Assembly (NCBI GenBank): GCA_943736015.1
Contig: OX031063.1
Location: 2,275,001-2,339,000 of the forward strand
Direction of reading: 5' to 3'
DNA length: 64,000 nt
Origin: Tridacna crocea
Lineage: Eukaryota > Mollusca > Bivalvia > Cardiida > Cardiidae
This document shows positions 1 to 64,000 of this stretch, piece after piece (position 1 is the first letter of the stretch; the number at the start of each line of letters is the position of its first letter). The position numbers and the translations under genes were made by a program. The notes below the pieces were generated by a model, which was not told the DNA's origin, made no database searches, and was given only the letters and a program-made list of their open reading frames with translations.

Positions 1-90
1 AAAAGGAAAAACTGCTGGTTACCAGCAATTTTTTCATAAAGGTTCCTTCTTTGGGACATCAAAATTCCCCATTGTGTGGTAAAAGGTTAA
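1..90 (+). mobile_element. MITE A, cut by window edge
   Basis: Hairpin centre and short arm remain; ends at TTAA. Confidence 0.8.
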
Positions 91-139
91 AGACTCCCGC
101 TCATACTTGCTCACAAAGCCCTGCCTTGGACACATTTCT

Positions 140-274
140 CATTTTCTCCTTTTCCCACAATATTTTCTATCCTGTTGGAAACAAATTTCACTTTTTGAGT
201 TTCATATTTTGTTGTCTGCAAATGCTTTCAATTTGAATCAGTCTAAAATATATTGTTGTTTGGTACAGAGTTAA
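140..274 (-). mobile_element. MITE A half copy
   Basis: Right hairpin arm plus long arm only; ends GAGTTAA. Confidence 0.75.
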
Positions 275-323
275 ACACTGGACCTTTGGATAAAGAGTTA
301 TATATTATTGCTGTACACCATAC

Positions 324-436
324 CTCCTCTCCCATGTAATTCTTGCAGACTGGATACTGAGCATGCCATTCCATGTACGCATCATGGACCAGATGATGCA
401 TGTTTCTACATGTCTCTCTCGTAAACCAGTGAGCTC
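324..436 (-). CDS. Exon 42: Cys/His segment after the LRRs
   Basis: Acceptor TTTTATAG, donor GTATGG; phase 1/0, 38 codons: GAHWFTRETCRNMHHLVHDA, then YMEWHAQYPVCKNYMGEE. Phase match with exon 41 and an open frame support it. The gene continues to the left of the window. Confidence 0.78.
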
Positions 437-3400
437 CTATAAAAAAGAATGAGGAATCATTTTAATTCATACAGTGCTAAGCATGACATCAGTGTTGCTT
501 CTAAGATTTTCTAAAATGGGACCAAAAGGGCCTCTTTCTATTCACAAAGCACCTACTTAACATAATATAACCAGATGAAAGGCCAACACCATAACCACTG
601 AGCAAAAGGAAATTCTCCCAAACACAATTGTTAGGTATTGTATTTAACCCTTTCCCAAATAAGACCTAGTCTGCAGTAATAGTCTTTTGAAAACATGGTG
701 GGAAAAGGAGAAATTGCTTGTAACGAGCAATTTCTCCTTTTCCCACAGTGTTTTCTACCCTTTTTGAGAACTTTGTCATTTTCTCCAAATCCAAAATTGT
801 TGTCTGCAAACTCTTGGGGTTAGAAACAAATCTGTTTAGGGACATCTATGACAAATAGCAAGAATCCTACAGCCAAGTTGCATATTGTACAAAATCGGAA
901 GTTGGATCTCCAGTCTTCATTGCCTGCTATTTTAAAAGACATTTGGGTCAAAGAGTAAAGGACAGACTGGCTGATTCCAGTATACCCCTGAAAACATTCA
1001 TTTTGCGATGGTATAATTAGATACATTTATCAAATAAATTCAAAACCTGTCAGATCCAGAGTTTTCAAGTTTTTCAAATTCTGCAAGGTTTCTGGAAGGC
1101 TTGTGACTGGGTTCTGGTTGAGAGAAAGATAAGTCAAGGCCTGTAGGCGGCCAAGATTTTCAGGCACACTGTCCAACAATAGCCCGTCTAGACTCAGAGT
1201 CTTCATGTCTGAGTTTTCCACGAAATCCTCAGGTAGGTGCTTGATTGGCATGTTCTTCAGCTCCATTAGAACAACGGTAGGTGACATGAAGATGTCCTTT
1301 GGCAGTTCTGTAATGGCCGTGTTCTGTACCTTCACGACCTGCAAACCATAGAACCATTTTAGTCGTGCTCTGTGAAATGGGGCTTAATGCATCTCCATGA
1401 TGCATGAATCCTTTACCAAACAATGACGATTTATTGATCATGAGGAAGAAGCCTTTTGCAAACATTTTGGGAAAAGGAGGAAATGCTGCATAAAGTTTTC
1501 TAATCTATCAGAGAAAATTTGCATTATTTGAGCCACTATGCAAACTCTTTGAATTCCAAGAGGGCTAAAAATTTTTACCACCATTTTCTCCTTTTCTCAC
1601 ATTTTTTTTTCAAAAGCTGTCTTTCTCTGCACTGTTTGATAGAAGCTATAAATCAGTATAAGTGTTAACCCTTTACCACATAATCCAAAGTTTTTTACGA
1701 TCCTGAGGAAGAAGGCCTTTTGAAAACAGTGTTGGAAAAGGAGAAAATGCTGGTAACCAGCTTTTTCTCCTTTTCCAACAATACTTTCTACCCTATCAAG
1801 TACAAATTTCATATTTTTGGCTACCTTTAATTTTCATCTGCAAATGCTTTTAATTTGGACAAATCTGAAATTAAGATGTTCAGTAAAGAGTTAATACCTG
1901 TAGAGACTTGGCCTTATGAAAACCTCCTGGCAATGAAGTCAATCTTCCCATGTGATTACCCACTGCCAAAGATCCAATACTAAAATACTGAAGATTTTCA
2001 AACTTTTCAAAAAAGTCCTCTGGCAGTTCCTTCAACGTCGTCAATGACCAGTTAAACACAGACACAGACTTGAGGTACGGTTCAAAATAATCGTAACTAA
2101 ACGTAATGTCTTTTTCCACGAGTATCACATCTGTAACATCGTTGTTCAAACAGTGCGCTTTACACACTGCATACTTGTCGTAACTCGTAAACTTAAACAA
2201 AGCATCGGCATCTGTCTGTGGCTTTCCTGGAAATTTCCTGACATGCTCATCTCTGTTTTTGATTGCGTCTTTAATTTCGTGTCTGTCTTCATTCGTTGGT
2301 GTGTATTGTACTCCGCCCCAAGCTGCGTTGTATATGCCACATAGTGATGTGTAAGATTGAAGCATGTTGTAGAATAACTTTTCGACCTGGTTCTGGGACA
2401 AACCACTACTGTCTCCCTTGATCAAGTTTTTATATGAAGTCAGGTTTAACTGCAAGATAAAAAGAGTATTTCTTACATGTTCTTGCTAACAAATGACCTT
2501 TAGTCTAACAGTGGGCATTGATTTTTTTTTAATCATATTGTGGTAGGAGAAAAAACTAGATCTGTTACTGAATGTGACTTAGTACCCCGGCCGGCACTTT
2601 GACAGAAACAAGGCAATTATTTGTACACAGACACACATACAGACAGACACAGATGGACACACTGATTCCAGTATACCCCCGAAAACATTCGTTTTGGGGG
2701 AGTTTAATGATCACACATGACTAACTTTCCCTTTGCCACAATGTTTTCATACTTTCTCATGTTTAATACTTTAGTTCATGCTAGGAAAGGGAAAACTCAG
2801 AATTCAGATCAAGAATTATCACTATGTGTGGACACTTTGAATTATTCTATAGATATCACACACACAGGGTTGCTGATTCGAATCTTTTTCCAAGGATTGA
2901 TGATAGTCATTACAACAGCATTATCTCACTTCCACCGGCATTTTCTCCTTTTTCCACATTGTTTTCTACCCGATCAAAGACAAAGTTCATTGTTCCAGTC
3001 GCATATGATTTTTTACAATCAAAATGCTCTTGTTATTGGTCCATCTGAAATGAGGTCCCCTTGTAATAAGTTAAGCTAAATTTAAGTAGCACTTCTAAAG
3101 AAATTATTCTCCGTCAGGAAAAAGCACTCAACCCATAAGCACATAACAAATTTCAAGCAAATTCAAACTGACAGCATTTGCAGATAACTAATTTAACCCA
3201 TTACCATAGAATCCCTACTTTTGACAGCTATGAAATTAGAAACCTTTAGAAAACATTGTGGAAAGAGGAGAAAATGCTGGTAGCCAGCATTTTCTCCTTT
3301 TCCCACAATGTTTTCCACCCTTCACAAAACAAATTTCAAATTTTCAGTCATTTTAATTTTGACGTCTACAAATGCTTTTGATTTGGACAAGCCTAAAATT

Positions 3401-6400
3401 TTGTCATTTGGTAATGAGTTAATGTGGCTCAAATTATTGAATTCGTCTCTGAGAGAAAAGAAAATATTTTTGGAAAAGGAGAAAATGCTGATTACCAGCA
3501 TTTTCTCCTTTTCCCAAAATGTCTTTAAAGGCCTTCTTCCACAGGGTAGTTAAAATTTGTGATAATAATTTATTGTAGGGTGTTTAATGATGTTTTTAAC
3601 ATCATTTCAGTTATATTCCAGCAGCCAATGCACCTATCTATGCTTTCATGGAGTCTCTTTACCAGTACTCCGCACAATTTTCTTCTTAACCCTTTCCCAA
3701 ACGGCAAACTTTTGGACTATACCAAATTGAAAGCATTTGCAGACTACGATTCAACTCTTGCTGAAAAGATTATTTCTGTCTATGATAGGGTAGAAAACAT
3801 TGTGGGAAAAGGAGAAAATGCTGGTTACCAGCATTTTCTCCTTTTCCCACAATGTTTTCAAAAGGCTACTATTCCAGACCCGTAAAAATCAGGGATTGTT
3901 CGGGAAACGGTTAAGCCACTGGCTTTTTTCCCTCGTAACCATCGTCGAGACAATGGCCAGTGGTCGGAGAGGAATAAATCCTGTCTCAATGACTATCATC
4001 AATCCTCAGAAAGAAATTGGCCGAGCCGGGAATCTCGTGATAGTGAGGTAACAGAATAACCAAACCTTCTGCCCAATCAAGGCCATGTAGGTCCAAACAG
4101 TTTTCCAGTCCCCATATAGGGCCTCAATAGGTAAAGGGGTCTCGGGTATGATCCCTGGTATATCAACAAAATGAATCGGTATCTTCCACATCCGATTATT
4201 AGGGAACCCAGCAAAGTCTTGAATCAGCTTCATTTCATCTGACGAAAAAAAGAACAAATAGCACATGTGAAACTTTTACAACATATAGAAATGTTGGAAT
4301 TGTCCAAATTCAAATCATTTGCATAACAGAAATTAACACATTACCACACAATCCCTACTTTTGATGACCCTGAAAAAGAAACCTTTAGAAACCATTGTGG
4401 TAACCAGCATTTTCTGTTTTCTTTTGAAAACACAGCTGGAAAAGGAGAAATTGCCTGTAACAGATGTTTTCTCCCATTCTCAAACTCTTTTCTACCCTTT
4501 TGGATCACTTTCTGCCATTTTCATCAAATTTAAAATTGTCCTCTGCAAACTCTTTCAGTTTGGAAGAGTCTAAAATGACAAAATTTTAGGTTTGTCCAAA
4601 TTTAAAGCATTTGCAGACAACAAAGTAAAAGTGACTGAAAATTTGAAGTAAATTTTGTAAAGGTTTGAAAACATTGTGTGAAAAGGAGAAAATGCTGGTT
4701 ACCAGCATTTTCTCCTTTTCCAATAATAATTTCTTAAGGCTTCTTTCTCTGGGTCATCAAAAGTAGACTGTGTAGTAATAATGGGTTAAAAAGTTTGACA
4801 TAAATCAATAAGGTAAGAAGACATAAATCATCCATAAATACTGTTTACTCACTGTAAGAAAAGCACGTCCTGTGTACAGCCACATCTTTAAATATGGAGG
4901 TAAGGTTCGGGTAGATCAGCAGGTCAACAGAAAGGTCGCTGGGTAGAAAGGTGTAGAGATACATGTCTTCATCGTCCTTCAGCCAGTCAATCAATGATCG
5001 TACAGCATTGCACATAGACTTCTCTTGCACTGTTATAACAGAATAAAGCAGAATAGAACCATAAATTGTGTGGTAGCTGACAAGGAAGATAAATATAGAT
5101 CTAGTTCATAAGTAAAAGTTATTTAGACATTAACCTGTTACCACACAGCAATATTTGAAATATATTCAAATTGAAAGCATTTGCAGACAACAATTTTAAA
5201 GTGGCTCATATGGTGCTATTTTGCTTTGATAGGGTAGAAAACATTGTCAGAAAAGAAGAAAATGCTGGTTACCGGCATTTTCTCCTTTTCCTGCAATGTT
5301 TTCAAACCCTCTCTTTTTCAGGGTCTTCAACCCATTACCACACAATCCCTACTTTTGACGCCCCTGAGAAATAAGCCTTTTGAAAACACTGTGGGAAAAG
5401 GAGAAAATGCTGGTAACCAGCATTTTCTCCATTTCTCACAGTGTTTTCTACCCTTCCCAGAACAAATTTCAATTTTTCAGTCACCTTTATTTTGTTGTCT
5501 GCAAATGCTTTCAATTTGGACCAGTCTAAAATTTTCTCGTGTGGTAAAGAGTTAAAGGCTAAGATTGTGTGCACGATACCCTTATCTTGGGGAATACCAC
5601 ACGTATGCGGGTGTCAGTATTTGGCTAAAGTTGCTTTTTCGGTGAAAATTTGAGTGATACAGTGGGCACTGACGGGTAGAGAAAATCTGATAAAAAGCTT
5701 TTGAAAACTCAGTAGGAAAAAGAAATGCTGGTAACTGGCATTTTCTCTTTTTTCTACAATGTTTTCTACCCATTTACAGACATATTTTTCTGGCGATTAC
5801 ATACCATCATGTTTTTCTTTTTTCAAAAATAGCTTTAATACCAACAAAATTAATCTTCAGAGTGCAAAATAAACCCAACTGACATTTTGAAATTAGAAAT
5901 ACAACCCAAATAATTACAATGTAACCATAGTTTTTGTCTGTAGTGTTTAAGAAAGTTGACAGTGTAGATCAAAGATCAGACTGCACATTTTGTGAAGTGT
6001 GATCTTGGCCTACACTGTCCAAAAAGGCAACTACAGAAGCCAAAGTTGTCGTAATGGTTAAGATCATTTAATCTGTAACAAGTGACTACGCTCAGTGCTT
6101 CTGCTACAAGATGGTACTGTGAATGAATGACAGTTTAACAAATGATATCTTTCGTTGCCTTCAACATTTTCTCAGTCATTTCACTGCAACAGTTCACTCG
6201 TCCATGTTTGAGATTAAAACAGACAGCACAAAAACTCCACACCTACCTGTTGGTCGTGTAAAAACCTGCGCACACAAGTTAAACTTCTTCAGCACGTTGG
6301 CTTTCCAATCTTTGTCAATAAATTGCATCACTTCCTGGGCAGCCTGTATGTGGACAATGAAAAAAAACTTCCTAACTATAACAACATTCACTCGCTCTCC

Positions 6401-18400: not shown

Positions 18401-21400
18401 GAACAGATTCGCCGAGGGAATGAAAACCCACACAAGGGTAGTAACCTAGACGACTGGGATTAAGGTTTAGTTCGATGCATTTTTCTCCGTTCTTCCTGAA
18501 GAATCCCTTGTTTCTTGCAAAATCGCAATGAAAGGACATCTCATCTCCGACAGTGGCTTTTAATGTTCTTCTTGTGGGAGAGCCAGACTCAAGGAAAATT
18601 CTGTTTGAAAATAAAATGTGATTGGGCCATGCACTGGCAAGAGGCGGTTAAATTAACCCTTTACTCCATAGATACTCATTTGACGCATCAAAAACAGACA
18701 CCTTTTGAAAACATTGTGGGAAAAGGAGAAATTGCTCTCCAACAATGTTTTCCACTCAATCAGATATTTGTATCCTCATTTGTCCACATTTTTGACGTCA
18801 TGTCTTTATTTGCTGCTGAAATGGAAGAACCTCAAATTGGCATATCAGGGAAAGAGTTAACTCATTACCAAACGACAAAATTTTTGGTTTGTCCAAATTG
18901 AAAGCATTTGCAGATGACAAATAAATGTGACTGAAAATTTGAATTCTGTTTTGTGAAGGGTAGAAAATATTGTGGGAAAAGGAGAAAATGCTGTTTACCA
19001 GCATTTTCTCCTTTTCCCACAGTGTTTTCTAAAGGCTTCTTTCTCAGGGCCATCAAAAGCAGGGATTGTGTGGTAATGGGTTAAGAAATAATAATCTTTC
19101 TTTCGTGGTTTTTTCGTTCAATAAACCAAGGTTGTGAGTTATGAGGCTCAATAAATATCCCACAAGAGCCATAGCCCCATGTGGTTTATTCATTGCGCCT
19201 CATAACTCACAATGTGGTTTATTGAAGGATAAATCATAAAAAGATTATTTTGACTCTAACATGACCAAGTCTGTATTAAAGGAAAACAAATCAAAACTTC
19301 TTGTACAAGAGCTGATGCAGATAACATTCCCTGGAGTAAACCATGGCTTTAACAAAGAAAGACAGGTCGATGACCACAGCTATAACATAATACACCCTTG
19401 GGGCATACAAAAAGCAATCTTTCTGTTAAAAAAATTATTTCAACAAAATGCGCTTTCTCCTTTTACCACAATGTTTTCAAAACATTTCCTCAAGGTGATT
19501 AAAACTCATGGTTGTGTGGTAAAGAGGTAAGGCTTCACCCTTTATCAAACAACAAAATTTTGTTCTAGTCCAAATCTAAAGCATTTGTAATTTTGTAGAC
19601 GAAAAAAATACATGTAAATCAAAAACTGAAATGTGATTTGGGAAGGGTAGAAAACATTGTGGGAAAAGGAGAAAATGCTGATTACCAGCATTTTCTTCTT
19701 TTCCTACAATGTTTTCAAAAGGATTCTATCACAGGGTGATTAAGAGTCTGGATTGTGTGGTAAATGGTTAAAGCCCAGACTTACCCTCCATCATCTGCAT
19801 GATAACCAATAGCCTGGGAGTTCCAACCTGGTTGCCTGTTTGGAGCATAGTTTTGGGGTACCAGCCCAATTGCAATGTACCCACCTTTACCAGTGGAAAG
19901 TATACCTGTGAATAGAAAATAAATGTTTGTGATTTTTTGCAAAAACACTCTTTGCCGGTCCCCCTCCTCCCTATGAAAATAAAGGTCCTGCTGTGACTTT
20001 GAACACAAAGACTTGTACATGTATGTGCTGTAGTCCAAACTGGAATCCAGGCAGATCCGGAATCTGCCTAGACCAAACTGGAATTTGTCTGTAACAAATC
20101 AGGATTCCAGTTTAGCTTTGCAGCTCTACAATCTGTCTACACCAAATTTTAATAATTTCTCGTTGAATATAGGGCATCTACATATAATATGAATCATCTT
20201 ACTTTTAAACGTAAACCCGAAAATAAAAGAAGTTTTAGTCAGAAATTCAGAGTAAATATAAATTTTGAATGTTTTGTACTAATAAAAAAGGTGGAAAAAA
20301 GAGCGATTGTGGAAAAATCATATAAAATGCTTTAAATAAAAATACCTCTCAACTGTAAACATAATTAAATCAATATATTTTTAAAAAAAAGTATTAGAAA
20401 ACAATGCAGTTTGGTCTACACAAAATTTGAATTCTAATTTGGTCTAGGCAGATTCCGGATCTGCCCAGATTCTAATCTGGCCTACAACATATGTATAACC
20501 AGATGGATGTCTGTGATTTTCTTTTTTCAAATCAGACAAAGAAGTAACCCTTCATCAAACAATGACGACTTTTAACGACCCTGAGAAAGAAGCTTTTTGA
20601 AAATATTGTGGGAAAAGGAGAAAATGTATGTTCTCCTTCTCCCACAAAGTTTTCTACCCTTTCAAAGCAAAACTGCACCAAATGAGCCGCTCTGTAATTG
20701 TCGCCTGCAAATGTTTTCAATTTGGATAGGTCTAAAAGTTTGCCTTGTGGCAACAGGTTAAGGATATATGGGGGGATGGACAGACTGATAGGTGAACAGA
20801 AAGATAGAAAAGAATATGTCTTCCCCTAATTTAAATAACAGAGGAAGACATAATTAATCAAGAATTATTCTTAACCCTTTACCAAACAATCCCTGGTTTT
20901 TACAACCCTGAGATAGAAGCCTTTTGAAAACATTGTAGGAAAATGAGAAAATGCTGGTAACCAGCATTTTCTCCTTTTCCCACAATTTTTTCTTCCCTGC
21001 TGGAAACAGATTTCAATTTCTGAGTTATGTTTATTTTGTCATCTGTAAGTGCTTTCAATTTGTACCTAAGATTTTGTCATTTGGTAAAGGGTTAAGAGCT
21101 ACAGCAATGTCAAAATTAATCATAATCTCAACAAAGTAACAAGTTAAATATCAAGGAACTGATATCATAGACAGCAAAATGAGGTACTCAACACTTTCAA
21201 AGAGGGCTTGAACTGGTTACAAACACTTGTAAATGCTCAAATGCACATCTTTTTACTTCATAGCCAGACGTTTAAGAAAAAGTATCTTTCTATTGTAGTT
21301 TATCATTCAATAAACCACAGTTGTGAGGAATAAGGCACAATAAATAATTCACAAAAGCAATAGCCCAAGCGGTTTATTCATTGTGCCTCATAACTCACAA

Positions 21401-27400: not shown

Positions 27401-30400
27401 TTTTCTGTGATCAATACGGGCCGTCCATATCTAGAGGTATTCGATATCACAAGGGACAGTATACAGGGGGGAAAGCCTGCAGGAATTGTGTAGGTCTGCT
27501 TCATCACAACAAAGTCTTTTCTATCCATGAGGGGAAGATAGTCATTCTGCAGGAAAAAAAAGTTTTGAATAATATTCAATAGAAAACAGGACCTTAATAG
27601 ATGACAAAGATCAACATCAGATTGCACAGAATGGAACAAAATGTTAAAATATTAGAGAACATGATAGAAAATTAAACAAATAGAAAAATAACTTGTTTCA
27701 GAATTATTAAATTGATACATATCTATGATTGTATTAGTTTTATTTTTCTTTTTATCACTTCTTTTTGTTTTATAGATATTGTCAAATGTGTATTTGTAGC
27801 CAGCTGAACAGTGACCAACTTGTGATCAACTTTCTTATTAATTTAGTCCATTACCCTTACGGTAATTTATGTAAAATTATGTGTCTTACACAACAAGGTG
27901 TCTTAAGGGTCTTATTTTCTGTTTGTTCGGTGGGTGGTGACTTAATTCTTTACCTCACAATCCCAACTTTAAAAGACCCTAGGAAAAAAAGCTGTCGTAA
28001 AACACTGTGAAAAAGGAGAAAATGCTGGTAACCACCATTTTATCTTTTTCCCACGTTTTCAACCTTTCCAACAAAAAATTTCAATTGTTGAGTCACATGT
28101 ATTTTGTGGCCTGCAAAGGCTTCTATTTGGACATTTCTGAAATTTTGTTGTTTTGTCAAAACAGGAACTGTATAGTTATCAAACTCTAAGAACAAGAACC
28201 CGCGTCTATGCTAGAAAATCTCACACCAACCAAAGCAAGAGACCCTGGCATGGGCCCTACAGCCCTCACATGATAAAAATGAAGAGATCCTGCTTTAACT
28301 CATTACCAAACGAAAGAATTTTAGGTTTATCCAAATCGAAAGCATTTGCAGACGAAAAAATGAAAGTGACTGAAAATTTGAAATTTGTTGTGTGAAGGGT
28401 AGAAAACATTGTGGGAAAAGGAGAAAATGCTGGTTACCAGCATTTTCTCCTTTTCCCACAATGTTTTCTAAAGGTTCCTTTTTCAAGGTCGTCAAATGTA
28501 GGGATTGTGTGGTAATGGGTTAAATGATGTACAAGAAATGAGTATAAGAGATTTCCTAAATCTCGTTGACCCAACAGGATTCAAATTCCAATTTGTCCGA
28601 GATATTGTTGAAACAACCATTCTCATCAAGTTTTGTGTATAAACCTTTGCTAAACAAACTCGTATCATAACAATCCTGATGATGTTTTGTCAGAACTTTG
28701 TACGAAAAGATGAAAATGCTAGTAACTAGCATTATATCCCTTTTCAACAGTGTTTTCTAACCCAACATAAGACAAATAACTTCATATCAATTCCTCTTTT
28801 CTTTTACAATTCCCATTGTCTGAGCCACATTTACTATGTCCTTTGGAAATGTTTCCAATTTGAATCTGTCTACAACTTTGCTGTGTGGTGAAGAGTTAAG
28901 TGGTAAATGGCAAAATTTTAGTCTGGTCCCAACTAAAAGCACTTGCAGAGTGGTAAATGGCAAAATTTTAGTCTGGTCCAAACTGAAAGCAGTTGCAGAC
29001 CACAAAATAAACTTAACTCAAAAATTTAAATTTCTTTCCGGCAGGGTAGAAAACATTGTAGGAAAAGGAAAAAATGCTGGTAACTAGCATTTTCTCCTTT
29101 TCCCACAATGTTTTCAAAAGGCTTCCATCTCAGGGCCGTAAAAACCAATGATTGCTTGATAAAGAGTAAACTTGTTGCTTTCAAACTCTTCCCACTCACC
29201 TGTGTCTATCATTATTGTTGTATGATGTGCAGAATGCCAATTGGCTCGATGAAATACCTTTCATACCATTAAATGATAAAAGTTTGACAAAGCAAGAGGA
29301 AAAAACATTATAAAATTCAGCAAATAAGGTTTGTAAATGGTTCACAATTTGATTTAAAGTAACAATGAAGGCCAAATGAAAACAAAGCGGGTTTTTAATG
29401 CAGTTGAATTTATACAATACCATTTTAACATATAAAAATTATTGTGTAGCTGACAATCTGTCATTGTACGATCTGTCTAAGTGTTAGTCACTGATAGACA
29501 AATTAATTTCAAAACTAGGTAGCTGTGTCTTTTGTTTACTTTGTGCCTGATTTTATTTTTTTTTCTGCCAGCCACTAACATATGGCCTGACCACAAGGTA
29601 ACAATCGTCATTTCCACAATATTTACTATACCTTTAAATGGTATGATTTAAATGTTTTAATTTTAAATGTGTTGTGACACCAGCTTTGATGCTTTTGCCT
29701 TTACTGGGCCTTTAAAGAAAGTAAATCTATTTTGTTTTGTAAAGTCTCATGATGAATATACCAATCAAGGTTCATATTTATTCTTGTGCGGGTGTCCTTC
29801 ACAAAACACACAAACATACACAACAAGATAAATTCACTGCCCACAGGTTGTTTCTAACATCTATAGGGGTAGGTGCCGAGGGTGTAAACATAAGGACTTT
29901 CTAATTTTACGAAAACTAAAAACGAGCCCTGCTCTGGCAAAAGGAGGTTTCATGCATCTCTACGATTCACGGTACCATGCAAGACATCAGATTATTGCGG
30001 ATCTACAAAATCTATTTCAACATCTGACTGAATCATGAAGGATAAAATTGACCAGTAGCAAAAATTTTTGATCCCAGGTCAGTTTGGGCTGACTGTGCAC
30101 GCTGACCTAAGTCCATACATTTGAAGATGCATTTACTCTTTACCAAACAACAAAATTTTGGACAAGTCCAAACTAAAAACATTTGTAGATGACAAAAAGA
30201 TGTGAAACTATGATTGAAATTTGATTTAGAGAGGGTAGAAAACATTGTGGGAAAAGGAGAAAATGCTGGTTACCAGCATTTTCTCCTTTTCCCACAATGT
30301 TTTCAAAGGCTTTTTTTCTTAGGGTTGTTAAAAGTCAGGATTGTGAGGTAAAGAGTTAACTCTTTACCACAACACAAAATTTTAGCCAGGCCCAAGTTGT

Positions 30401-36400: not shown

Positions 36401-39400
36401 CTGAGAAAGAAGTCTTTAGAAAACACTGTGAGAAATGGAGAAAATGCTGGTAACCAGCATTTTCTCCTTTTCCCTCAATTTTTTCTACCCTTCACAAAAC
36501 AAATTTCAAATTTTCAGTCACTTTTATTCTGTCATCGGCAAATGCTTTCTATTTGGACCAGTCTAAAATATTGGCGTTTGGTAATGAGTTAAAGCATTTG
36601 CCTGGTTAGTTTGGCTGTTTTCGAAGGAAAAGTTGAGGTTTTAAAATAGCCAAATCATCGACTGTGTAGTTGTATTGCAACTGAAGATATTTACTTCAAC
36701 TTTAACTACTTGTTACTTACTATAGGAGAACCCAAACAACAGAGCAAGGTTTTTGATATTTTTGACACTTTTTGATGCTCCTTTTTTACTTTAAATTTTA
36801 ACTGAAAAGCAAGTTACTGCAGTCGAGCATTGGTAACAATATACAGCATTCTTAACTTATTTGTTCTGATTTAGATTTTCCTGTCCCTAAATGTATTCCA
36901 ATCACGTAGAAAATAAATATAAACATCTTTACAGACATTATTCTCATCTTGATCTCCACGGTCCCCAAAAGTAATGTACGCATCTGAATAACCATTATCC
37001 CACAACTAAGTATCATCTTACCCCTTTACTCCATAAGGAATTTCTATTGTATGTATAATTGACCCTACATAACAGCAAGGATGAAGCTGTTTCTTATGTG
37101 TATATGACACCTTTTGATTGTGTGGAAAACATTGTGCCAAAAGGTGAAATTGCTCATCACGAGCAATTTCACCTTTTGCCAAAATGTTTTCCAAAGGCTC
37201 CTACAAGCAATGCTTAGAAATGAGTATCTATGAAGTAAGGGGTTAACTCATTACCTAACAACAAAATTTTAGGTTTGTCCAAATCAAAAGTATTTGCAGA
37301 TGACAAAATACAATGTTTTCAGAAGGCTTCTTTCTCAGGGTTGTCAAAAGTCGGGATTGTGTTGTTAAGTGTTAAACACACATCATTTTGATCTTGACCT
37401 GTATTGTCCACCAAAAGGAACATAAATTGTTCTGTTTTGTATCCTTTGATTTCACCCATTGCCATGCTTTCTGTGAAATTTCTTGCCATAACCGGGTAAC
37501 TATCATTGCACAAAGTATAAATATATTTAACTATCTACAACACAGAACTCTGAACTCAACCACATTAAGGCATTCAGCAGACAGCAACTTATGTGAAGCT
37601 CAAGGGATGACTTCCATCTGAAAGGGTAAAAAATATTGTAGGGAAAAGGTGTTTTCTCCTTTTCTTACAATGTTTTCAAAAGCATTCTTCTTCAGTATCA
37701 TTAAAACTTGGGGCTGTTTGGTGATGTTTAACTCTTTACCAAACAACAAAATTTCGGACTAGTCCAAATTGAAAGAAGTTCCAGACAACAAAATTATTCG
37801 ACTCAAAAATTGAAATTTGTTGTAGGAAGGGTAGAACACATTGTGGGAAAAGGAGAAAATGCCACTTACCAACATTTTCTCCTTTTCCCACAATGTTTTC
37901 AAAAGCCTTCTTTCTCAGGGTCTTTAAAAGTCGGCATTGTGTGATAAAGAGTTAAAACACACTCAAAACTTTACTTGATCTATACTTTACGCAAAAGCAC
38001 TGTAAGTTGTTCTTGACACTTCAAGGCTTAACTCACTTTTCCATTTTACTTATACACGCCGTAACATTGTTCAATTCTGGCCAGTCACCAAGGTGAATCT
38101 GCTGCTGTAATATTTGTAGTTTTCCTGAGGGGTCCGACCCCTCCTTTCCGACACCAACAACCAGGAACTCTGTCCCTGTATATGTTTCTGTTTTTGTTTC
38201 CTCTGACTTAGCCATGTCTATCTTTGTCTTTTCCTGTTAAAGTACAAAACATGGTTTATTCCTTTACCTAAAAATCCCATGTTTTAACCCTTTACCACAT
38301 GGAAAAATTTTAGACCATCCAAACTGAAAGCATTTTGCAGACAGAAATTTCATAGTGGCTAAAATGACGCAATTTTTCTTTGATAGGGTAGAAAACTTTG
38401 TTTGAATAGAAGAAAATACTGGTTACCAGCATTTTCTCTTTTTCCCATGTTTTCAAATGGCCTCTTCCTTAGGGTCATTGAAAGTCGTCATTGTGTGATA
38501 AAAAGGTTAACAACCCTGGTAAAGACCACTTTGGACAGCATCATGGAAACATGGCTCATCCCGCAAAATTTGTATACAGAAAGTATCAAAAAGCTGGTTA
38601 CCAGCATTTTGGTTGAGAAAGCTGGTTACCTGCATTTTCTTCCTCTCCCAAAATCTTCTCCCTCAAGGCCATTAAATGTTGTCAAGCCACATAAATGAGG
38701 CCATATTTTACATATTTGTCCACAAATACCTTCATTATGGGCAAGTCTAATAGCACTACGTCTTGTTTACTGATAAAGAAATAAAGATAGAACCTGCCGC
38801 CATTTTGACAAACATTTGGCTAATGAGCAGTTTCTTCAAATCTAATGGGATTAATTTCCAGCTCCACCAATTTTGCTACATTTTTGTGACCCATCACACA
38901 AAAAGGGACACTGCTAAATTGCGCAGGCTGACCAGGGTTGACACTTTTCCCTTTAATGACATTTTCTGTACGAAAAGTGGTCATTGTACATTGTTGTACA
39001 ATCATTTTTTAAATATCAACTTAAATTGACCTGCACTATCATTGATCTGTTTTCATCTAAGTGATGTACAGAACTCCTGAGAGGTCAAATTTATTCTTTT
39101 CTAACCCCTTATTATCATTTCCACAATAGTTTTGTTGGAGTGCAGCAAACGGTTTTGGAAGAAAATAGTGCAAAGTACTGGTAAAAGAAACTCCAAGAAA
39201 GCATGGACAGGTAAACTGGCCATTGTAATATAGCTGAACAATTGTTGAAAGCACTTTAACATCATTCAAACTACTGTCCCATGAATCTGAGAAGACATAC
39301 CTTAACTCTTTACCACACAATCCCAACTTTTAATAACCTGGACAAAGAAGCCTATAGAAAATATTATGGAAAAAGGAGAAAATGCTGGTAACCAGCATTT

Positions 39401-42400: not shown

Positions 42401-45400
42401 AAGGAGAAAATGCTGGTAACCAGCATTTTCTCCTTTTCCCACAATGTTTTCAAAAGCTTTCTCTTTCAGGGGCGTTAAAAAGTCGTCATTGTGTGGTAAT
42501 AGGTTAAACAAGTTCTTCACAACACATTCTTTTCAAGCAAATGGGTGCTCTGCCATGTAAACATCCTAGAAACAGTGTTCTGTGGTTGGAAAAGAATGGG
42601 GATCAAACTTGTGTTCAACTGATTGTATGGTGTTTAACCCTTTACCCCATAAGGCATTTCTATGGTATCTCTAATTGACCCTTAATAATAGCAAGGATGA
42701 TGCCATTTCTTGTGTGTATGTGATACCTTTTGATAACATAGAAAACATTGTGACAAAAGGTGAAATTGCTCGTCACGAGCAATTTCACCTTTTGCCAAAA
42801 TGTTTTCCAAAGGCTCCTACAAGCAATGCGTAGAAATGAGTATCTATGGAGTAAAGAGTTAATGCCATTTTCAACATTATTTCAGTTATATCACGCTGGC
42901 CAGTGCACCTATCCATGCTTTCCTGGAGTTTCTGTTACCAGTACTCTGCAAAATATTCTTTCAAAAGCAACTGACTTCCTTCCCACATAACCATTGTTTA
43001 AACAACCATCAGCAGTGAGAGAGGAATGAATCCTGTTGCAATGACTATCATCAATCCTTGGAAAGAAAAAGGCCCAGCTGGGGATTGAACTCACAAACCG
43101 CTTTTCTCAAGTCCTGTATGCTACCAACTGAGCTACCAGGGCTCGGCTACGTAAGCCCTGAGCTACCAGACTTGATAGTTATGCATGTAAATGTAAAATA
43201 ATTCTAAACAGGAAGTTAAAACGAAGACGCAAAGAGCATCAACTCACTGTCCGTTATCTCCATGGTAACCCACGGATCCAGCTATCCAACCAATAAACTT
43301 TGAGGCATCGAAGTCGAACCCAGCTCCTCCAATACCGAACAGCCGTGTACTGTCTTCCTTCAGTATCTGTACTTCAAACTCCAGGAGATCTTTGTTGAAC
43401 GGAACTTTGGAAATGAAGATACTGTACAGTTTGGGACCAGTTTTTGGAAAGTCACTGTCAAAAAAAATTATGTTAGCTTATTAGCCCATTACCACACAAT
43501 CCCTACTTTTGACGCCCCTAAGAAAGAAGCCTTTAGAAAACATCGTGGGAAAAGGAGAAAATGCTGGTAACCAGCATTTTCTTCTTTTCCCACAATGTTT
43601 TCTACCCTTCACAAAACAAATTTCAAAATTTCAGTCACTTTTATTTTGTCGTCTGCAAATGCTTTCAATTTGGACTAGTCTAAAATATTGTCGTTTGGTT
43701 ATGGGTTAACTGACTAAGCTTCTACCAGACAACAAAGTTTTAGAATTGTCCAATTTGAAAGCATTTGCAGACGACAAAATAAATGTGAATAATAAATTGA
43801 AATTTGCTTATGGAAGGGTAGAAAACTATTTACAAAATGACAATGTTCTAGACTTGTTTGAATTGAAAGCACTTGCAGACTACAAAATAAATGTGACTCA
43901 TAAATTGGAATTTGCTTATGGAAGGGAAGAAAACATTGTCGAAAAAGGAGAAAATGCTGGTTACCAGCATTTTCTTCTTTTCCTGCAATGTTTTCAAAAG
44001 GCTTCTTTCACAGAGCTGTGAAAACTAAGGATTGTTTGGTAAAGAGTTAACTCACACTGTATTGCTTTTTTAACTCTTTACCAGACAATCCGACTTTTAA
44101 CAACCCTGAGAAAGAAATCTTTTGAAAACATCGTGGAAAAAGGAGAAAATGCTGGTTACCAGCATTTTCTCCTTTTCCCACTATGTTTTCTACCCTTTCC
44201 AAATCAAATTTCAATTTCTGATTCACATTTATTTTGTCGTCTGCAAATGCTTTCAATTTGGACTAGTCCAAAATTTTGTCGTTTGGTAAAGAGTTTGATT
44301 TTTTTTCATTAATGTTTTGTGAAGAAAACTGTCCAGTCACAAAGTCTACTACTTACCCAGAATCCTCCATTTCTCCATTATCCATGACCTTCAAGAAGTG
44401 ATTACGCCCCACCGTGATTTTGTTCCTTATAGGTGCCTGAAAAAAAGAAGATAGTTTAGTCACCTTGCTGATTTGTTTTGTTATTTTGCCCATCTTGTTC
44501 CTCATTTTTATGTGTGTTTGTAGACGGATAATCAAATCTCCTTCAAAACCATAAAATTTGTCTTTAACCACTTACCACACGACAAAATTTTACACCTGTC
44601 CGAAATGAAAACATTAATTTTGCTGCTGATGAAATGATCTTTCTTTTATGGGGTAGAAATCATTGTGGGAAAAAGAGAAAATGCTGGTTACCATCTGTTA
44701 TCATGAGTGATGAATTAACATTACAGTGAAGCATTTTGACTGATCCAATCTCAAATCAATGCATACCTTATTATACCATATTTTTGACTATTTCACAGAC
44801 TGTAGATATTTTTTTTTTCTTTTGTGTGGGATATTTCATCCAATTACAGTGCATGTATTGCAGTCGGAAAATTTACCGTAATGTAATAATGCTGAATCCA
44901 ATAGCAACGGATGTATTACAGCAAGAAAATTTACCGGTTTGGTATAATGCTGATTCTGATTACAACACATATATTGCAGCCGGAAAATTTACTGGTATAT
45001 AATAATGCTGGCTATAGGCATTTTCTTCTTCACCAATTACATTTTCAACAAGATGGCCATGATGGCCCTGAATCGCTCCACTGGCTTTTAAACACTTTAC
45101 CACACAAATTGAAGTATTCATGACCCTGAAAAAGAGGGCTTTTGAAAACAACGAACACTGTCAGGCAATACAAGTAGGTTTATTAATTGGCTTGACATGT
45201 AAAGTTTTTGGGAAAAAACCTGAATGATAGAAAATTTGCATTGAATTTAAAATTCCACTCATGTGAGCATAACTATCAGCATCGAAACAAATCGCTCTCC
45301 TTGAAAACAGAAGATTTTCTATATAAAAACTTAAATATCTAGCACCAATCATGAATCATTGCATTTTGATAATCAAGGTAGGTAAATAGTACATAAGTTA

Positions 45401-48400
45401 TTTCCCTCGATTACTGTTAAAATTGAAGTGACTACATATGGAAGACCATGTCAAACTTGTGATCCCTAGAATGCAGCCAATTTTGACCCCAGACCTATAA
45501 TATGAAGAGACTTGTTGAAAAAGCTACATACCAAATTCAGTAGCCCTGGGCCTTGTGGTTTCTGAGAAAAAGATTTTTTTTTCTGTTTTGTTGCTATGAC
45601 AACCAGAGTTTTAGAAGGAATCAAATTCTTTTAAGAATTCTGAAGAGGACCATGGCAGGATAATTTCTGTGAAGTTTCATCAAAAAGAGAAGAAAACGTT
45701 TGAAATAAAAGGTAACGCACCCAAGCACAGACGGACGGACGTACAACAGACACCAGGCCATGACATAAGCCTGCCGGACTGGGCCAAGCTAAAAATCATG
45801 TCTGTCAGTGTTGTGAAAACTTGAGAATGTTAAATATTCAAATCTTACTGGTCTCCTGTAGGTAGGTTTGTAGTTCTTCAACCTTAAAACATCATTTTGG
45901 TATTTTAGCCGAATACAGGGTACCAATCTACTGGCCTTATTTGGTTTGAATGGAAACTTTTTGACACAAATCTGAAAAATGTAGAAAAATAAGACATAGA
46001 AGATGCGACATAAGCTGGCACTGAAAATAAAATTTAATTTCTTCATTACCAAACAACAAACTTTTAGACCAAATTTAAAGTACTTGTAAAAAGAATAAAA
46101 TAAATATGGAAATTAAAACTAGTTCTGGAAAAGTAGAAAATATTGTGGGAAAAGGAGAAAATGCTGGTAACCAGCATTTTCTCCTTTTCCCACAATATTT
46201 TCAAAAGCTGTCTTTCTCTAGGATTGTGTGGGAAAGGGTTAAATGTGTCTAGAAAAGAGATATTAATTGCCTAAAAAATGCTTTTTCTTGTTATAAGACA
46301 AGTGTTATAAAATTCTGTCCCAAAAACAAACAAATGACAGATTCTTATTATAAAACAATAAAACACTGTACAAGCACACAATGGTAATTTCAGTCAATAA
46401 AAGCATCCATTTGAACACAAGTCTATTAAATGATTTAGGTCCATTTTTTTTTTAAACTCTTTACCAAACGACAAAATTTTAGACTAGTCCAAATTGAAAG
46501 TATTTGCAGCCTACAAAATAAAATTAACTGAAAATTTGAAATTTGTATCGAAGAGGAGAGAAAACATTGTGGGAAAAGGAGAAAATGCTGGTTTCCAGCA
46601 TTTCCTCCTTTTCCCACAATGTTTTCAAAGACTTTCTTTCTAAGGGTCTTTATAAGTCGGGATTGTGTGGTAAAAAGTTAACCAAGTTGAGTTGAAAACA
46701 TTGTGACATCTCAGGATTTGAAAATGAGACTAGTCTCTTAATGTTGGTGGTATGTCTCTAATTAACCCATTACCACACAATCCCTACTTTTGACGCCCCT
46801 GAGAAAGAAGCCTTTTGAAAACACTGTAGGAAAAGGAGAAAATGCTGGTAACCAGCATTTTCTCCTTTTCCCACAGTGTTTTCTACCCTTCCCAGAACAA
46901 ATTTCAATTTTTCAGTCACATTTATTTTGTCGTCTGCAAATGCTTTCAATTTGGACCAGTCTAAAATTTTCTCGTGTGGTAAAGAGTTAACAAATTTAAC
47001 TTGACTCTACCAAACGACAAAATTGTAGACCAGTCCAATTTGAAAGCACGACAAAATTGTAGACCAGTCCAATTTGAAAGCATTAGCAGAAACATAAGTA
47101 TGGCTTGAAATTTGTCTTGGGAAGGGTAGAAAACATTGTGGGAAAAGGAGAAAATGCTGGTTTCCAGCATTTTCTTCTCCTTTTCCTACAATGTTTTCAA
47201 AAGGCTTCTAGCTGAGGGGCATTAAAAGTCGGGACTGTGTGGTAAAGAGTTAAACCATAAACTTAGTATGTTAGCAGATTTGATTAACCCAAGAGACTTA
47301 TATTGTTTTGTTAAAACCCGCTCAAGACCCATATTGATGTAAACATTTCCAGTAATGACAGGTTTTCAAACTATGCCACTGAGGCATATATGAAAAGGGC
47401 TACAACATATTTTCTTCAAAACAGCAGAGGTAAAATAATCAAAGCCATGGTCAAAAAAATGTCAGAATTCATATTTGTCCTCCTGCCATTTTGCACATTT
47501 TCTACAGTTAGACAAGATTATTCTTACTTTTCCTCCTGCCATTTTGCACTCTTCCTACAGTTTTTTAGACAAAGGAAGATAATCCACTTGCCTTCACCAA
47601 ATTTTTACTAGTAAGGACAAGTGGACAAGTGGATTTTTTGGACCCTGAAAGCTGTATTTACTTGTTTTCCATTGTGAAAGAATTCCACTTGTGTAAGATC
47701 ATTTCCCGTAGCTTTTGACACGGTCACCATGAAGGTGTCTCCCTCTTGTATCTGATCCGTTTGTTCAGTGACCTTTGATGACGCCTGCATGTTGATCTCT
47801 GACCTGTTTATAAGGAAATACTGCTCATGTACAGTTTAACAAACAATTCCTTGGTTTAAAGACCCCAAGGATCAATGTATGAGAAGCATTTTCTCCTTTT
47901 CCCACATTCTTTTCTACCCATAAAAAGACAAATATTGTTAACTCTTTCCCAAACAATCCTGACTTCTGATGACCCTTGGAAAGAAGCCTTTTAAAAACAT
48001 TGCAGGAAAAGGAGAAAATGCTGGTAACCAGCATTTTCTCCTTTTCCCACAATGTTTTCTATCCTTCCCATAGCAAATCTTAACTTTTCAGTCACATTTA
48101 TTTTATCGTCTGCAAATGCTTCCAATTTGGACTAGTCTGCAAATTTGTCGTATGGTAAAGAGTTGATTGCGATGTCACTTAACTTTCCCAAACAATCCCT
48201 GGTTTTTACCGCCCTGATATAGAAGCCTTTTGAAAACATTGTAGGAAAAGGAGAAAATGCTGGTACCCAGCATTTTCTCCTTTTCCCACAATGTTTTCTA
48301 TCCTTCCCATAGCAAATCTTAACTTTTCAGTCACATTTATCGTCTGCAAATGCTTCCAATTCGGACTAGTCTTTAAATTTGTCGTTATCACTTAATTTGT

Positions 48401-51400
48401 TAATCCAAATATTTTCCAAATTCGGACAAGTGTAGAACATTATTGTCTTTTAAACAATTAAAGGGACTCAACTTTTCAAAGTTTCTCCCGCAGAATGTCA
48501 GTAATTTTAACCCTTTACCACACACTGACAACTTTTGACGGTCAGTGTTGATCAAGATCAGGCTGCACAGATATCAGTCTTTTGAGCCATTCTTTATTCG
48601 CTGTCTGTGAATTCTTTCAATTTGGATGACTCTAAAACTTGGTTATTAGGTAAGGAGGTAAGTAAAACTGTGTAAGAGATGTTGTAGCTTGAAGGCTTCA
48701 CATAATTTTTCAACATTATAGATCCAAGATCAGTCAAAATATGCAGTTACTATCAACCTCATCTAACCTGACCAAGGTCAAAATCATTTACATTCTATTT
48801 TTACCCTCCGCATTGCTCGGCATATGTTCCACATGATCACGGAAATATTTCAACATGTATTCAAAACGAGGAACTGTGTTGTCAAGTACTAATAATTAGT
48901 ATACAATTTTGTTAACTCATTACCACACCAGAAAATTTTGGACTGGTCCAAATTGAAAACATTTGCAGACAACAAAATAAAGGTGACTGAAAAATAGAAA
49001 TTTGTTCTGGGAAGGGTAGAAAACACTGGGGGAAAAGGAGAACCAGTATTTTCTCCTTTTCCCACAGTGTTTTCAAAAGGCGTCTTTCTCAGGGGCGTCA
49101 AAAGTAGGGATTGTGCGGTAATGGGTTAAAACCTGCCTACATTTAATAGCAGCATGTATCTGATTTTACAGTTGTGTTCAAAGCTATTCTTTTTGCGTAA
49201 CTCGCCCCACAAAAACATGGATAGCACCATGGATGTGTGCAGGATCTGTAATGATTTATTACCAATAAAACATGGACGAACAATATTTACAGGAAGTTTC
49301 AGTGTGACCAATCAATTATTAGAGGTTTTAGGCTATATCCAAGCACCCGTCCATGGAATGTCAAAGTATGTTTGTGGTTATTGCTTCATGTTGAATAATT
49401 GTATTCGTAAGCGGTTTGTAAAATGATATTTCATTGGCTATAAGAAATATGATGTAAAGGGGGATAATAATCAGCATCCATTAGGGGGTGTATCGCGGGA
49501 ATCTCGAAATCTGGCACGTAGTGATCGTAACCTTGGCTCGCGAAGCTGATATTCAGGTAAAATGCGGGTGACTCATAACCTGAAGGAAATATGTCATTTA
49601 CCTTACATTTCTGTCGCTTGATGTAATGTTGTAATTCATTGCTATGCAGAGGGGGGATGCCACAGGGACTAACTGAATAAAACTACTGCATTTTGATAAA
49701 GTTACTCTCAGAAAGAGTTCAAAGCATGAAATATATAGAATATAAATAAATTTTGATCTTTACCCAAGAAAAGACAAATATCCCCTATATATTCCACCAT
49801 TATTTCTAAATAAACTACATACAAGCAAAAATTACTTTAATGAAAATTACTTACCAAACCTCCCTGGCATATTGTCCAAACCTGAAATGAAGCAAAAAGT
49901 TTAAGTAAGGAATTGTATCATCTCTGACAGATAAGATCTGACATGAGTTGACATAAAATTTTATTAACTCATTACCAAACAACAATATTTTGGGCTAGTC
50001 CAAATCAAAAACATATGCAGACAACAAAATAATAGTGACTGAAAACTTGAAATTTGTTTTGTGAAGAGTAGAAAACATTATCGGAAAAGGAGAAAATGCT
50101 GGTTACCAGCATTTTCTCCTTTTCCGAAAATGTTTTCGAAAGGCTCCTTTCTCAGAGTCGTCAAAAGAAGGGATTGTGTGGTAATGGGTTAAGTCTTTAC
50201 CAAACAACAAAATTCTGGACTTATCCAAATTCAAAGCAGACAATAAAACAAATGGAACTCAAAAACTGACATTTCTTTTGGAAAGGGTTGCAAACATTGT
50301 GGGAAAAGGAGAAAAATGCCCCAGTTTCTTCCAAGTCCACGATTCTAGTAGCCCACCTTCAACATGTGACCCCTGGGGCGAGGTCCATCAGATGAAACTA
50401 ATGCTAAATTCAAAAGCCCTGGGTCCTATGATTTCAGAAATGCACATTTTCTAAGGTTTCCAATATTTTTCAGTTTTGTTGCCATGGCAACCAGTGTTTT
50501 CAGAAGATTCAAATTATTTCAAGTAATTCTAGAGAGAACCATGGCCGAATCAGTTCTATAAAGTTTCATCAAAATTATACGGGTAGTTTCAGAAAAGAAA
50601 GTGCAGACAGAGGAAATTTGTTCTATCATCCACTTTGGATACAACACAGTTTCATGCTTAACTCTTTACCAAACGACAAAATTTAACATCCACTCAAATT
50701 GAATGCATTTGCAGACAACAAAATTGGTATGCTATGATTCAAATAATAAAAATTTGTTTTTAACCCTTTACCAAACAATCCCTGGTTTTTACGACCCCGA
50801 GATAGAAGCTTTTTGAAAACATTGTGGGAAAAGGAGAAAATGCTGGTAACCAGCATTTTCTCCTTTTCCCACAATGTTTTCTACCCTATTTGAAACAAAT
50901 TTCAATTTTTGGGTTACTCTTATTTTGTCCTCTGCAAGTGATTTCAATTTGGACCAGTCTAAAATTTTGTCGTTTGGTAAAGGGTTAAACAAGAAGAAAA
51001 CATTGTGGGGAAGGAAGAAAATGCTGATTACCAGCATTTTCTCCTTTCCCCACAATATTCTCAAGAGTCCTCCTCAGGGTTGTTAAAATTCGGGATTTGT
51101 ATAGAGTTAATAAATAACAATTTTGTAAATGCAGAAAGACAATCCCTTACCCTTCAGGTATTACCCCCTTCTTGCAAGAAGAACAAACAACATCTTTAAC
51201 TTCGTTTGTGTGTTTGCACTGACTACAAATCCAGTTCTTTGAATTGGAAGCCCTGAAAGTACAAATATAGCAGAATTTCGTTACTTTGCATGTCATAGGT
51301 TCCAGCAACTGTATATGTAAATATATATATATGCATGTTAAAAAATTTTGTAAATTTTGTGTTGAGAAAAGTTTGTTAATTAAAGGCACTCATTCTTTGT

Positions 51401-62215: not shown

Positions 62216-62868
62216 CTGAAAATATATTTCAAGCACACTTTATCAGTAGTGAACATAACTGTCTCTATAGGTGATGCTACTTTTTGAATGGTTGCCTTTA
62301 GGTGCAGATATTATCCAGAAAAAACCAGTTGAAAGCTCAGCAAAGATTTGGTTAATCAAATTTTGGTTAACATGTTTGGACTCAAATAATTTCACAAAAT
62401 TTTAATAGAGCACTAAACTAGGATTTAAACATACCTATAGCTTCAGTATTTATTAATCCTTCATTTTAAATACAAGTATTTTCAGTTCAAATGCTGAACA
62501 TGAGAGGAAACCATGCATTCCATCCATTGGTCAAATTGTTTACGTTCCCAAAAACCCAAAAAGGCCATAGAACACAATAAATTTCTTTAGCCTTTACCAA
62601 GATTTGCATGTTCTAAATGACTTCTACAAGTTCTTTAAATAACAAAAGGTTTAATAATTTGTCTTCGGTCATGTTTGTTACTAAAAGTTAACTGACGAAA
62701 TAGAAAGTCAGTATAGCGCTGTCAGGAAATTTATGATGGACTTGAGACGGTACTGTGCAAAAATAAATATTCAAATATGAGCAAATTCCTCATAGCGTCT
62801 CATTCATGAGGCTGAAGTTACAAGCATGTTTAAAAAGTATATGAGTTTTTTACTCTGTGAAAGGAGCC
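62216..62868. other. Upstream intron, no exon found
   Basis: Should contain or precede the exon entering exon 1 in phase 2; no convincing candidate. Confidence 0.45.
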
Positions 62869-63085
62869 TTACAACCTTTACCAATGCTCCCTTGTTATAA
62901 AAACCTTGAGGAGAATGGATTTTGAAAATGTGGAAAAAGGAGAAAATGTTGGTAACCAGCATTTTCTCTTTACCATAATGTTTTCTTTCCTTTCAAATAC
63001 TTTATCTAACTTTTGAGTCACCTCTATTTTATCTGCAAATGCTTCCAATATGGACATAAAGTTCTGTTGATTGGTAAAGAGTTAA
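62869..63085 (-). mobile_element. MITE A, diverged
   Basis: TTACAACCTTTACCAA start, TTAA end. Confidence 0.82.
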
Positions 63086-63103
63086 TCTATCTGCAAAAAA
63101 TAT

Positions 63104-63330
63104 TCACCCTTTCCCAAACTATCCCTGGTTTTTATGGTCAGGAATAGAAGCCTTTTGAAAACATTGTGGGAAAAGGAGAAAATGCTGGTAACCAGCATTT
63201 TCTCCTTTTCCCACAATGTTTTCTACCCTATCATATAGAAAAATAATCTTTTTAGCAACTGTTAATTTGTCATCTGCAAAATGCTATTAATCTGGTCTGG
63301 TCCAAAATTTGCCATTTGGGAAAGGGTTAA
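63104..63330 (-). mobile_element. MITE A
   Basis: TTCACCCTTTCCCAAAC start, GGGAAAGGGTTAA end. Confidence 0.88.
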
Positions 63331-63581
63331 TATTAAGCTTACAGTCTAGGCAGGCCGACCTAGGCCGAAACATTTTGACTTGGAACATTTTCTGCATGCC
63401 AAAAGACCACTCAAACCATTCATCTCCAAGACCGAGCTGTTTTTTGACAAACGCTTTCAATCTGGATGACACTAATAATTTGTGATCTGGTAGGAAGTTA
63501 AATCTATCCAACAAAATGAAAACTGTTGACAATTACAAAATTAGATTCTGTTAACTCTTGACCAATTAATCCATAGTTATA

Positions 63582-63805
63582 ACTCTTTACCACACAATCC
63601 GACTTTTAACGACCCTGAGAAAGAAGCCTTTTGAAAACATTAAGGGAAAAGGAAAAATGCTGGTAACCAGCATTTTCTCCTTTTCCCACAATGTTTTCTA
63701 CCCTTCCAAAACCAAATTTCGAGTTTTCAGTCACATTTATTTTGTTGTCTGCAAATGCTTTCAATTTGGACCCATCTAAAATTTCCTTAAGAGGTAACGA
63801 GTCAA
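63582..63805 (-). mobile_element. MITE A
   Basis: AACTCTTTACCACAC start; right end GAGTCAAC joins the next copy. Confidence 0.85.
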
Positions 63806-64000
63806 CAACCCTGAAAGAAAAGGCTTCTAAAAATGATGTGGAGAAAGGAGAAAATGATGGATGCCAGCATTTTCTCCATCTCCCACAATGTTTTCTACCC
63901 TATTGAAGACAGAAATCATCATTTATCCTACATTTATTTTGTTGTCTGGAAATGCTTTCAATTTGGTCCAGTCCCAATTTTTTTCCAGATGGTAAAGATT
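63803..64000 (-). mobile_element. MITE A, tip missing, reaches window edge
   Basis: Core GATGGATGCCAGC. Confidence 0.8.

Follow-up and report, generated by a model that had tools for sequence, protein, structure and literature searches.

The window analysed here, a stretch of 64,000 nucleotides from the bivalve Tridacna crocea (assembly GCA_943736015.1, contig OX031063.1, positions 2,275,001 to 2,339,000 of the forward strand), carries 131 non-overlapping copies or fragments of a single family of miniature inverted-repeat transposable elements (MITEs), which inserts at TTAA and has a long hairpin near its middle. These matches, called with nhmmer in three rounds (E ≤ 0.01, overlaps removed), occupy 22,723 bp, or 35.5% of the bases; 66 are near full length and the hairpin is present in 93. 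A first-pass annotation made from the letters alone had recognised one such family at about 100 copies or fragments, a count that is now exceeded. The comparisons described below suggest that, in one lineage, the central palindrome was kept by matching changes in its two arms while the flanking arms of the element diverged beyond recognition, and that the palindrome helps the MITE to spread.

Structure and Insertion of the Element

The element is short, uniform and without coding capacity, its model comprising 227 positions and the distance from TTAA to TTAA being 229 bp. Its layout is TTAA-C(C/T)C(T/A)TTACCA...TGGTAA(A/T)G(A/G)G-TTAA, with a central 67-bp palindrome (model columns 54-122) that consists of two 33-bp arms and a one-base centre, close to the arms of about 30 bp and one-base loop first described. 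The fold of this palindrome is near-perfect in both of the copies that were folded (28296-28522 and 33353-33579). A search of Rfam at gathering thresholds gave no match, and an exact arm 22-mer has no occurrence in the virus and prokaryote collections searched.

Insertion at TTAA is evident from the copies themselves. With termini aligned to the last model position, TTAA is found at 59 of the 68 left-hand termini and at 56 of the 61 on the right, and on both sides in 32 of the 37 copies aligned at both, with no longer direct repeat outside. In addition, an empty site bearing a single TTAA (sampled locus L018, 7231-7366) is the paralogue of a locus that contains a copy (L015, 2241-2461). Twelve pairs of neighbouring copies abut at the spacing expected of a shared TTAA, and in nine of these a single TTAA is indeed shared. 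Preferential insertion of the MITE into its own copies was considered and rejected, since random choice of TTAA predicts 17-20 abutting pairs; the nine observed lie just under three simulated 95% ranges (lower bounds 10-12), and there is no excess.

Genome-Wide Abundance

The genome assembly spans 1.049 Gb in 31 contigs, 18 of them 40-77 Mb in length, and was sampled at nineteen 10-kb loci chosen by position on 18 chromosomes. The family is spread throughout: the loci contain 193 matches, with a mean MITE share of 17.8% and a range of 4-38%. Four loci (L014, L020, L022 and L027) contain tandem arrays with a unit of 1.7-2.1 kb, each unit of which holds a frozen, asymmetric MITE copy, and for the estimate of copy number the copies in these satellite loci were set to zero and the locus length retained. 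The resulting density of 0.89 copies per kb corresponds to 0.94 million copies (bootstrap 0.63-1.26 million) and to 16% (10.7-21.5%) of 1.05 Gb, so that, by this estimate, a single short parasite accounts for about one sixth of the genome. The satellite itself could form a large part of the genome.

Across the genome there are 411,400 occurrences of the exact arm 22-mer and none of its control, the word read backwards; this total does not represent dispersed copies only, because 16 of the 77 hits in the nineteen loci fall within the four satellite loci. By the same measure the window (54 occurrences in 64 kb, compared with 392 per Mb genome-wide) has about 2.15 times the mean density, a value inside the range of single loci. 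A local hot spot is rejected, since the loci elsewhere carry the family at 4-38%; the density that had first drawn attention to the window is real but belongs to the genome as a whole, and its description as an extreme local one is not confirmed.

Conservation of the Palindrome

Among the 66 full-length copies of the window, identity to the consensus is 0.93 and 0.94 in the two hairpin arms, as against 0.80 in the left arm of the element, 0.785 in the right arm and 0.87 at the ends. The same order holds in a common search of 67 window and 77 random-locus full-length copies, in agreement with the initial impression that the hairpin is better preserved than the outer arms. Mean pairwise distance between full-length copies is 0.124 within the hairpin and 0.329 outside it.

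This conservation is found mainly between lineages. On a fixed tree of 73 copies, the internal branches sum to 0.267 for the hairpin and 2.729 for the remainder, a tenfold shortening, whereas terminal branches average 0.0516 and 0.1204 respectively, a 2.3-fold shortening. Within a single hairpin, moreover, the arms mismatch at 10-13% of pairs on average, and only 19 of 189 hairpins are perfect.

Copies that have been parked in the genome decay much more freely than the lineages do. A young subfamily was chosen by a 57-mer that lies in the right arm rather than in the hairpin and has 1,789 genome occurrences; the first 40 places were taken and 38 aligned in full. The other two (L081 and L098) gave no single full alignment and are excluded from the rates, as are the chosen 57-mer stretch and CpG columns, but are included among the 5 of 40 young copies in which the hairpin is partly lost. 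For alleles seen once, 56 of 2,954 positions are changed outside the hairpin (1.90%) and 30 of 2,426 within it (1.24%), a ratio of 0.65 (P = 0.063). Deletions also strike the hairpin: in the 66 window copies, nine deletions of at least 5 bp (in eight copies) lie in the 69-bp hairpin, compared with eight in the 146 bp outside.

The first-pass annotation had offered two readings of the well-kept hairpin, selection or one recent massive burst. The former is supported and probably acts on the source copies that transpose, because the hairpin deficit is tenfold on internal and 2.3-fold on terminal branches, and because private changes in young copies differ little and the hairpin suffers deletions. 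A single recent burst is unsupported, given a mean difference of 33% outside the hairpin, the arm mismatches within it and several coexisting subfamilies. That annotation would have doubted its own proposal had similar density genome-wide been joined by neutral divergence in all parts of the element; the density is indeed similar elsewhere, but the parts do not all diverge neutrally.

Complementary Change in the Two Arms

A distinct subfamily, here called subfamily 13, is represented by three full-length copies in the window, and the genome contains 27,445 occurrences of its arm 22-mer (none of the control). Aligned to a main-family copy, its inner arms score no better than shuffled sequences (z 1.3 left, 0.4 right), whereas another main-family copy gives z 8.9 left and 16.1 right. 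Its palindrome has nevertheless been retained, together with short stretches directly flanking it, and in all three copies four of the 33 pairs are changed on both sides in complementary fashion (68/108, 75/101, 80/96 and 85/91). Additional one-sided changes at 64, 90 and 109 are present in one or two of the three.

Two-sided complementary change extends to the family at large. Hairpins from the window and the random loci were counted after the four satellite loci had been dropped, which removed 23 of 244. Among the 221 that remain, 182 cells of the pair-by-copy comparison are changed on both sides and 131 of these are complementary; 1000 shuffles of partners gave a mean of 33.5 complementary cells and a maximum of 53, and slid pairings gave 18-30. 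Six pairs have a two-sided complementary type shared by nine or more copies, and for pair 80/96 both sides are changed at 12,256 loci genome-wide and only one at 1,815. Shared variants that are asymmetric, at positions 78 and 84, appeared to count against paired change, but 19 of the copies carrying them come from the tandem satellite with its frozen copy.

Relation to piggyBac

The TTAA target and the terminal sequences indicate that the element is probably a piggyBac-type MITE. Its left ends begin mostly with CCCT or CCCA, and its right ends, classed by their second base in column counts, are CT in 53 sequences and CC in 36; the terminal CC[C/T]T motif, as given in the part of the coral literature used here (PMC2872659), is present at many ends but not all. 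Kolobok elements share the TTAA target but terminate in AG/RR, according to the sections of the source consulted (PMC6004289); the ends here start with CC or CT instead, and piggyBac is the better fit.

The genome contains at least 118 matches to the piggyBac transposase domain (PF13843), of which 26 are almost complete and uninterrupted by a stop; several of these score equally, and piggyBac may for this reason have been active recently. Among 19 five-prime transposase flanks that were read, eight have a TTAACCC end, namely TTAACCCTTTATATACG (3), TTAACCCTTTCAGTGCGGG (2) and TTAACCCTAGTCATGCGGG (3), and TTAACCCATTTATGCC is found in one of ten three-prime flanks. These transposon ends share their first bases with the MITE. 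Its inner end, ACCAMACAATC, is absent from the TTAACCCTTT, TTAACCCTAG and TTAACCCATT ends in these 19 five-prime and ten three-prime flanks. The piggyBac-type identity proposed at the outset is supported by TTAA and the first end bases, although the flanks read did not yield a transposase whose inner ends match.

Proposed Role of the Palindrome

The account that we favour, at somewhat better than an even chance, is that of a non-autonomous TTAA MITE, probably of piggyBac type, that depends in cis on its central palindrome in addition to its ends. A transposase provided in trans would move the MITE, the palindrome would be needed for a copy to be amplified, and copies with a broken palindrome would leave few or no offspring. 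Source lineages would then keep the palindrome as their arms turn over, and it would decay once a copy is parked, which is where decay and deletion are indeed seen. Its action, we infer, lies in transposition or amplification. Conceivably, the palindrome presents paired half-sites to a dimeric protein. The piggyBac and piggyBat transposases bind palindromes via a dimer of cysteine-rich domains, as described in the portion of the literature drawn upon (PMC11707139), and binding by a dimer would account for symmetric change. Alternatively, the palindrome could act as an extruded hairpin: its 33-bp arms exceed a dimer-type site, leaving room for a folded structure.

Several observations weigh against this account. 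Hairpin and arms did not reach parity in close pairs in the first neutrality tests, on which account the young subfamily was added. When the outer columns were split, half serving to sort the pairs and the remaining half to measure them, with CpG columns excluded, the hairpin/outer ratio was 0.37-0.38 for the most distant pairs and 0.54-0.65 for the closest, where it should approach 1. In the young copies, all changes taken together give 143 of 2,954 outside and 61 of 2,426 in the hairpin (ratio 0.52, P < 1e-4); alleles seen once lie closer to parity, but private changes of adenine stay low (3 of 699 in the hairpin, 18 of 871 outside). Part of the hairpin deficit may therefore arise in parked copies or be mutational, and the A-rich make-up of the hairpin may account for some of a weaker deficit in parked copies. 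One-sided changes, moreover, make up the majority of changed cells (822 in the 221 hairpins), and nine one-sided types, eight of them transitions, occur in at least 15 of the 221, a frequency that only three two-sided types attain. Recurrent decay of parked copies may be the source of these common types, as decay predicts recurrent transitions; some, however, such as A66 with C110 (20 copies), follow a subfamily and have for that reason probably been amplified. Counted as events, two-sided changes are also few: many of the copies go back to one ancestor, and the shuffles take no account of descent. The one-sided variants slightly lower our confidence, and an autonomous partner is missing from the flanks described above.

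Four other explanations were considered. Template switching or mismatch repair in the folded palindrome might copy one arm onto the other without selection, which would give the excess of two-sided complementary changes, and the proneness of the palindrome to deletion is what fold-back replication would cause. However, among 1,183 pairs in the young subfamily one arm is changed in 54 and both in three (two complementary), so that such correction is rare in parked copies; it would, in addition, keep symmetry rather than sequence, yet only four of 33 pairs differ in subfamily 13 while the arms have become unrelated. A variant in which correction takes place during amplification may be envisaged, but self-correction appears unlikely as the explanation.

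About as unlikely, or marginally more so, is a mutational cold spot or a bias of composition or search, whereby hairpin bases mutate less or copies are found by their hairpins. The persistence of a ratio of 0.52-0.65 in young copies fits with a cold spot, as do low private changes in the hairpin for A and also for T (5 of 698, compared with 11 of 946 outside). Private rates for C and G, in contrast, are similar in the hairpin (12 of 517 and 10 of 512) and outside (21 of 871 and 6 of 266), and CpG columns were excluded from the rate tests. Search bias is countered by full-length copies picked by their ends, which show the same conservation, and by the choice of the young subfamily outside the hairpin. 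Nor would a cold spot yield complementary changes, and it leaves the stronger shortening of internal than of terminal branches unexplained.

Exchange of the hairpin among MITEs of separate origin, as a recombination joint or a captured module, is improbable. It is true that subfamily 13 and the copy at 18654-18859 join the hairpin with foreign arms, and a million copies would supply templates, but left and right arms are co-inherited (Mantel r 0.795, permuted maximum 0.236), the hairpin follows the arms (0.58 and 0.55), and arrangements with two left arms or two right arms number zero and one among 252 hairpins; free recombination at the hairpin is accordingly rejected. Finally, host use of parked copies (as structural RNA, in splicing or in chromatin), to which the very stable fold and a certain shortage of changes in young parked copies might point, is very improbable, as parked copies lose hairpins at the rates given above, few hairpins are perfect and Rfam gave no match at its gathering thresholds.

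Returning to the palindrome as a requirement of amplification, a broader proposition can be put forward tentatively, at rather less than an even chance: that the palindrome, evolving by paired complementary changes and perhaps recognised as a structure, is obligatory for MITE amplification as a third cis-determinant besides the inverted ends and TTAA, that it explains the approximately one million copies of one piggyBac-type MITE, and that the same principle might underlie the conserved core of the CMITEs of corals. The sequence history of this family points to one internal element as a condition of MITE success, which bears on the open question of why only a small number of MITEs multiply explosively and the majority remain rare. 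Natural variants in the hundreds of thousands offer test material for the role of the palindrome, which may also record time: provided that the arms are perfect at insertion, mismatches between them would date that event without an outside reference.

Other Features of the Window

Individual copies and one gene-like feature are collected in Table 1. A Pfam scan of 30 open frames in the window gave one match above the curated cut-off, the leucine-rich-repeat frame; the long open frame beside it (1883-2485) has no Pfam match.

Table 1. Positions of MITE copies and of an open reading frame in the window
Feature	Position	Strand	Details
MITE family, 131 copies or fragments	1..64000	both (71 +, 60 -)	nhmmer
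Leucine-rich-repeat open frame	1033..1383	-	Pfam LRR_8 above cut-off; MITE overlap 0.0
Full-length copy within another repeat	3687..3913	-	absent from paralogues L024 and L025 (target site degenerate, TTAA gone); joined flanks match 75% across junction
Two copies with one common TTAA	7879..8301		7879-8105 minus, 8104-8301 plus
Copy resembling subfamily 13 at left end and arm start	18654..18859	+	different right arm; hairpin partly deleted
Full-length copy, palindrome 28401-28469	28296..28522	-	palindrome perfect over 33 bp; DNA fold -38.5 kcal/mol, z -16
Subfamily 13 member	33353..33579	-	palindrome kept with four two-sided changes; outer arms without detectable relation to main family; fold -39.2 kcal/mol
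Subfamily 13, second member	37021..37245	-	
Subfamily 13, third member	42635..42861	-	
Top-scoring full-length copy	46763..46989	+	244 bits; model ends TAA...TTA, TTAA both sides
Central palindrome of copy 46763-46989	46816..46884	+	model columns 54-122; model coordinates
Copy 50761-50987 apparently nested in another copy	50659..51108		joined flanks align ~78% to uninterrupted copies, small gaps near junction

Other repeats are also present. A palindromic repeat with 43-bp arms (TTTTCTACATTTGTAAGTAACACAACTTCTGATTGG), which does not belong to the MITE family, lies at 60150-60239 in the window and at 7941-8030 in locus L024. Short palindromes around CAGCCTGYGC are found at 57261-57319 in the window and in three sampled loci (L011, 1800-1858; L018, 327-393; L023, 2697-2761), and presumably resemble repeats of bivalves. 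Tandem repeats comprise a 33-bp minisatellite at 16421-16898 (14.5 copies at 94% similarity, with several frames open) and 166-bp units at 58461-58877 (2.5 copies) and 58948-59655 (4.3 copies).

Comparison with Known Systems

Searches of open-licence papers brought up no title or abstract opening on this element or on any MITE whose internal palindrome shows compensated change. The REPINs of bacteria are likewise miniature palindromic mobile DNA, but are bacterial and are not known to have TTAA or terminal repeats of this kind. T2-MITE/Kolobok of Xenopus resembles the present family in its TTAA target and long life, and differs, on the portion of the report considered, in its terminal AG/RR in place of CC or CT (PMC6004289). 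With piggyBac-type MITEs generally, as characterised in the sections used of PMC2872659, the family shares the TTAA target, short inverted ends and lack of coding capacity. As far as the sources drawn on describe such MITEs, it is set apart from them by a long central palindrome kept across subfamilies and by an estimated copy number near one million.

A close parallel is provided by the CMITEs of Acropora corals, which duplicate TTAA, have CC[C/T]T-type ends and in some cases form tandem arrays (this and what follows from the parts of PMC2872659 consulted). These elements of about 100 bp, estimated at 1,600 copies in A. millepora, form several families with different ends and a common conserved internal region. 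The authors of that study suspected that it takes part in transposition, and described the origin as unknown. The present MITE similarly has an internal region that is more conserved between families than the rest, whereas the conserved 75 bp of CMITEs are not described in those parts as a palindrome or as undergoing complementary changes (PMC2872659). The family of T. crocea is the CMITE pattern at far larger scale, with the addition of a palindrome, of paired change and of a split between lineages and parked copies, and CMITEs are its older parallel.

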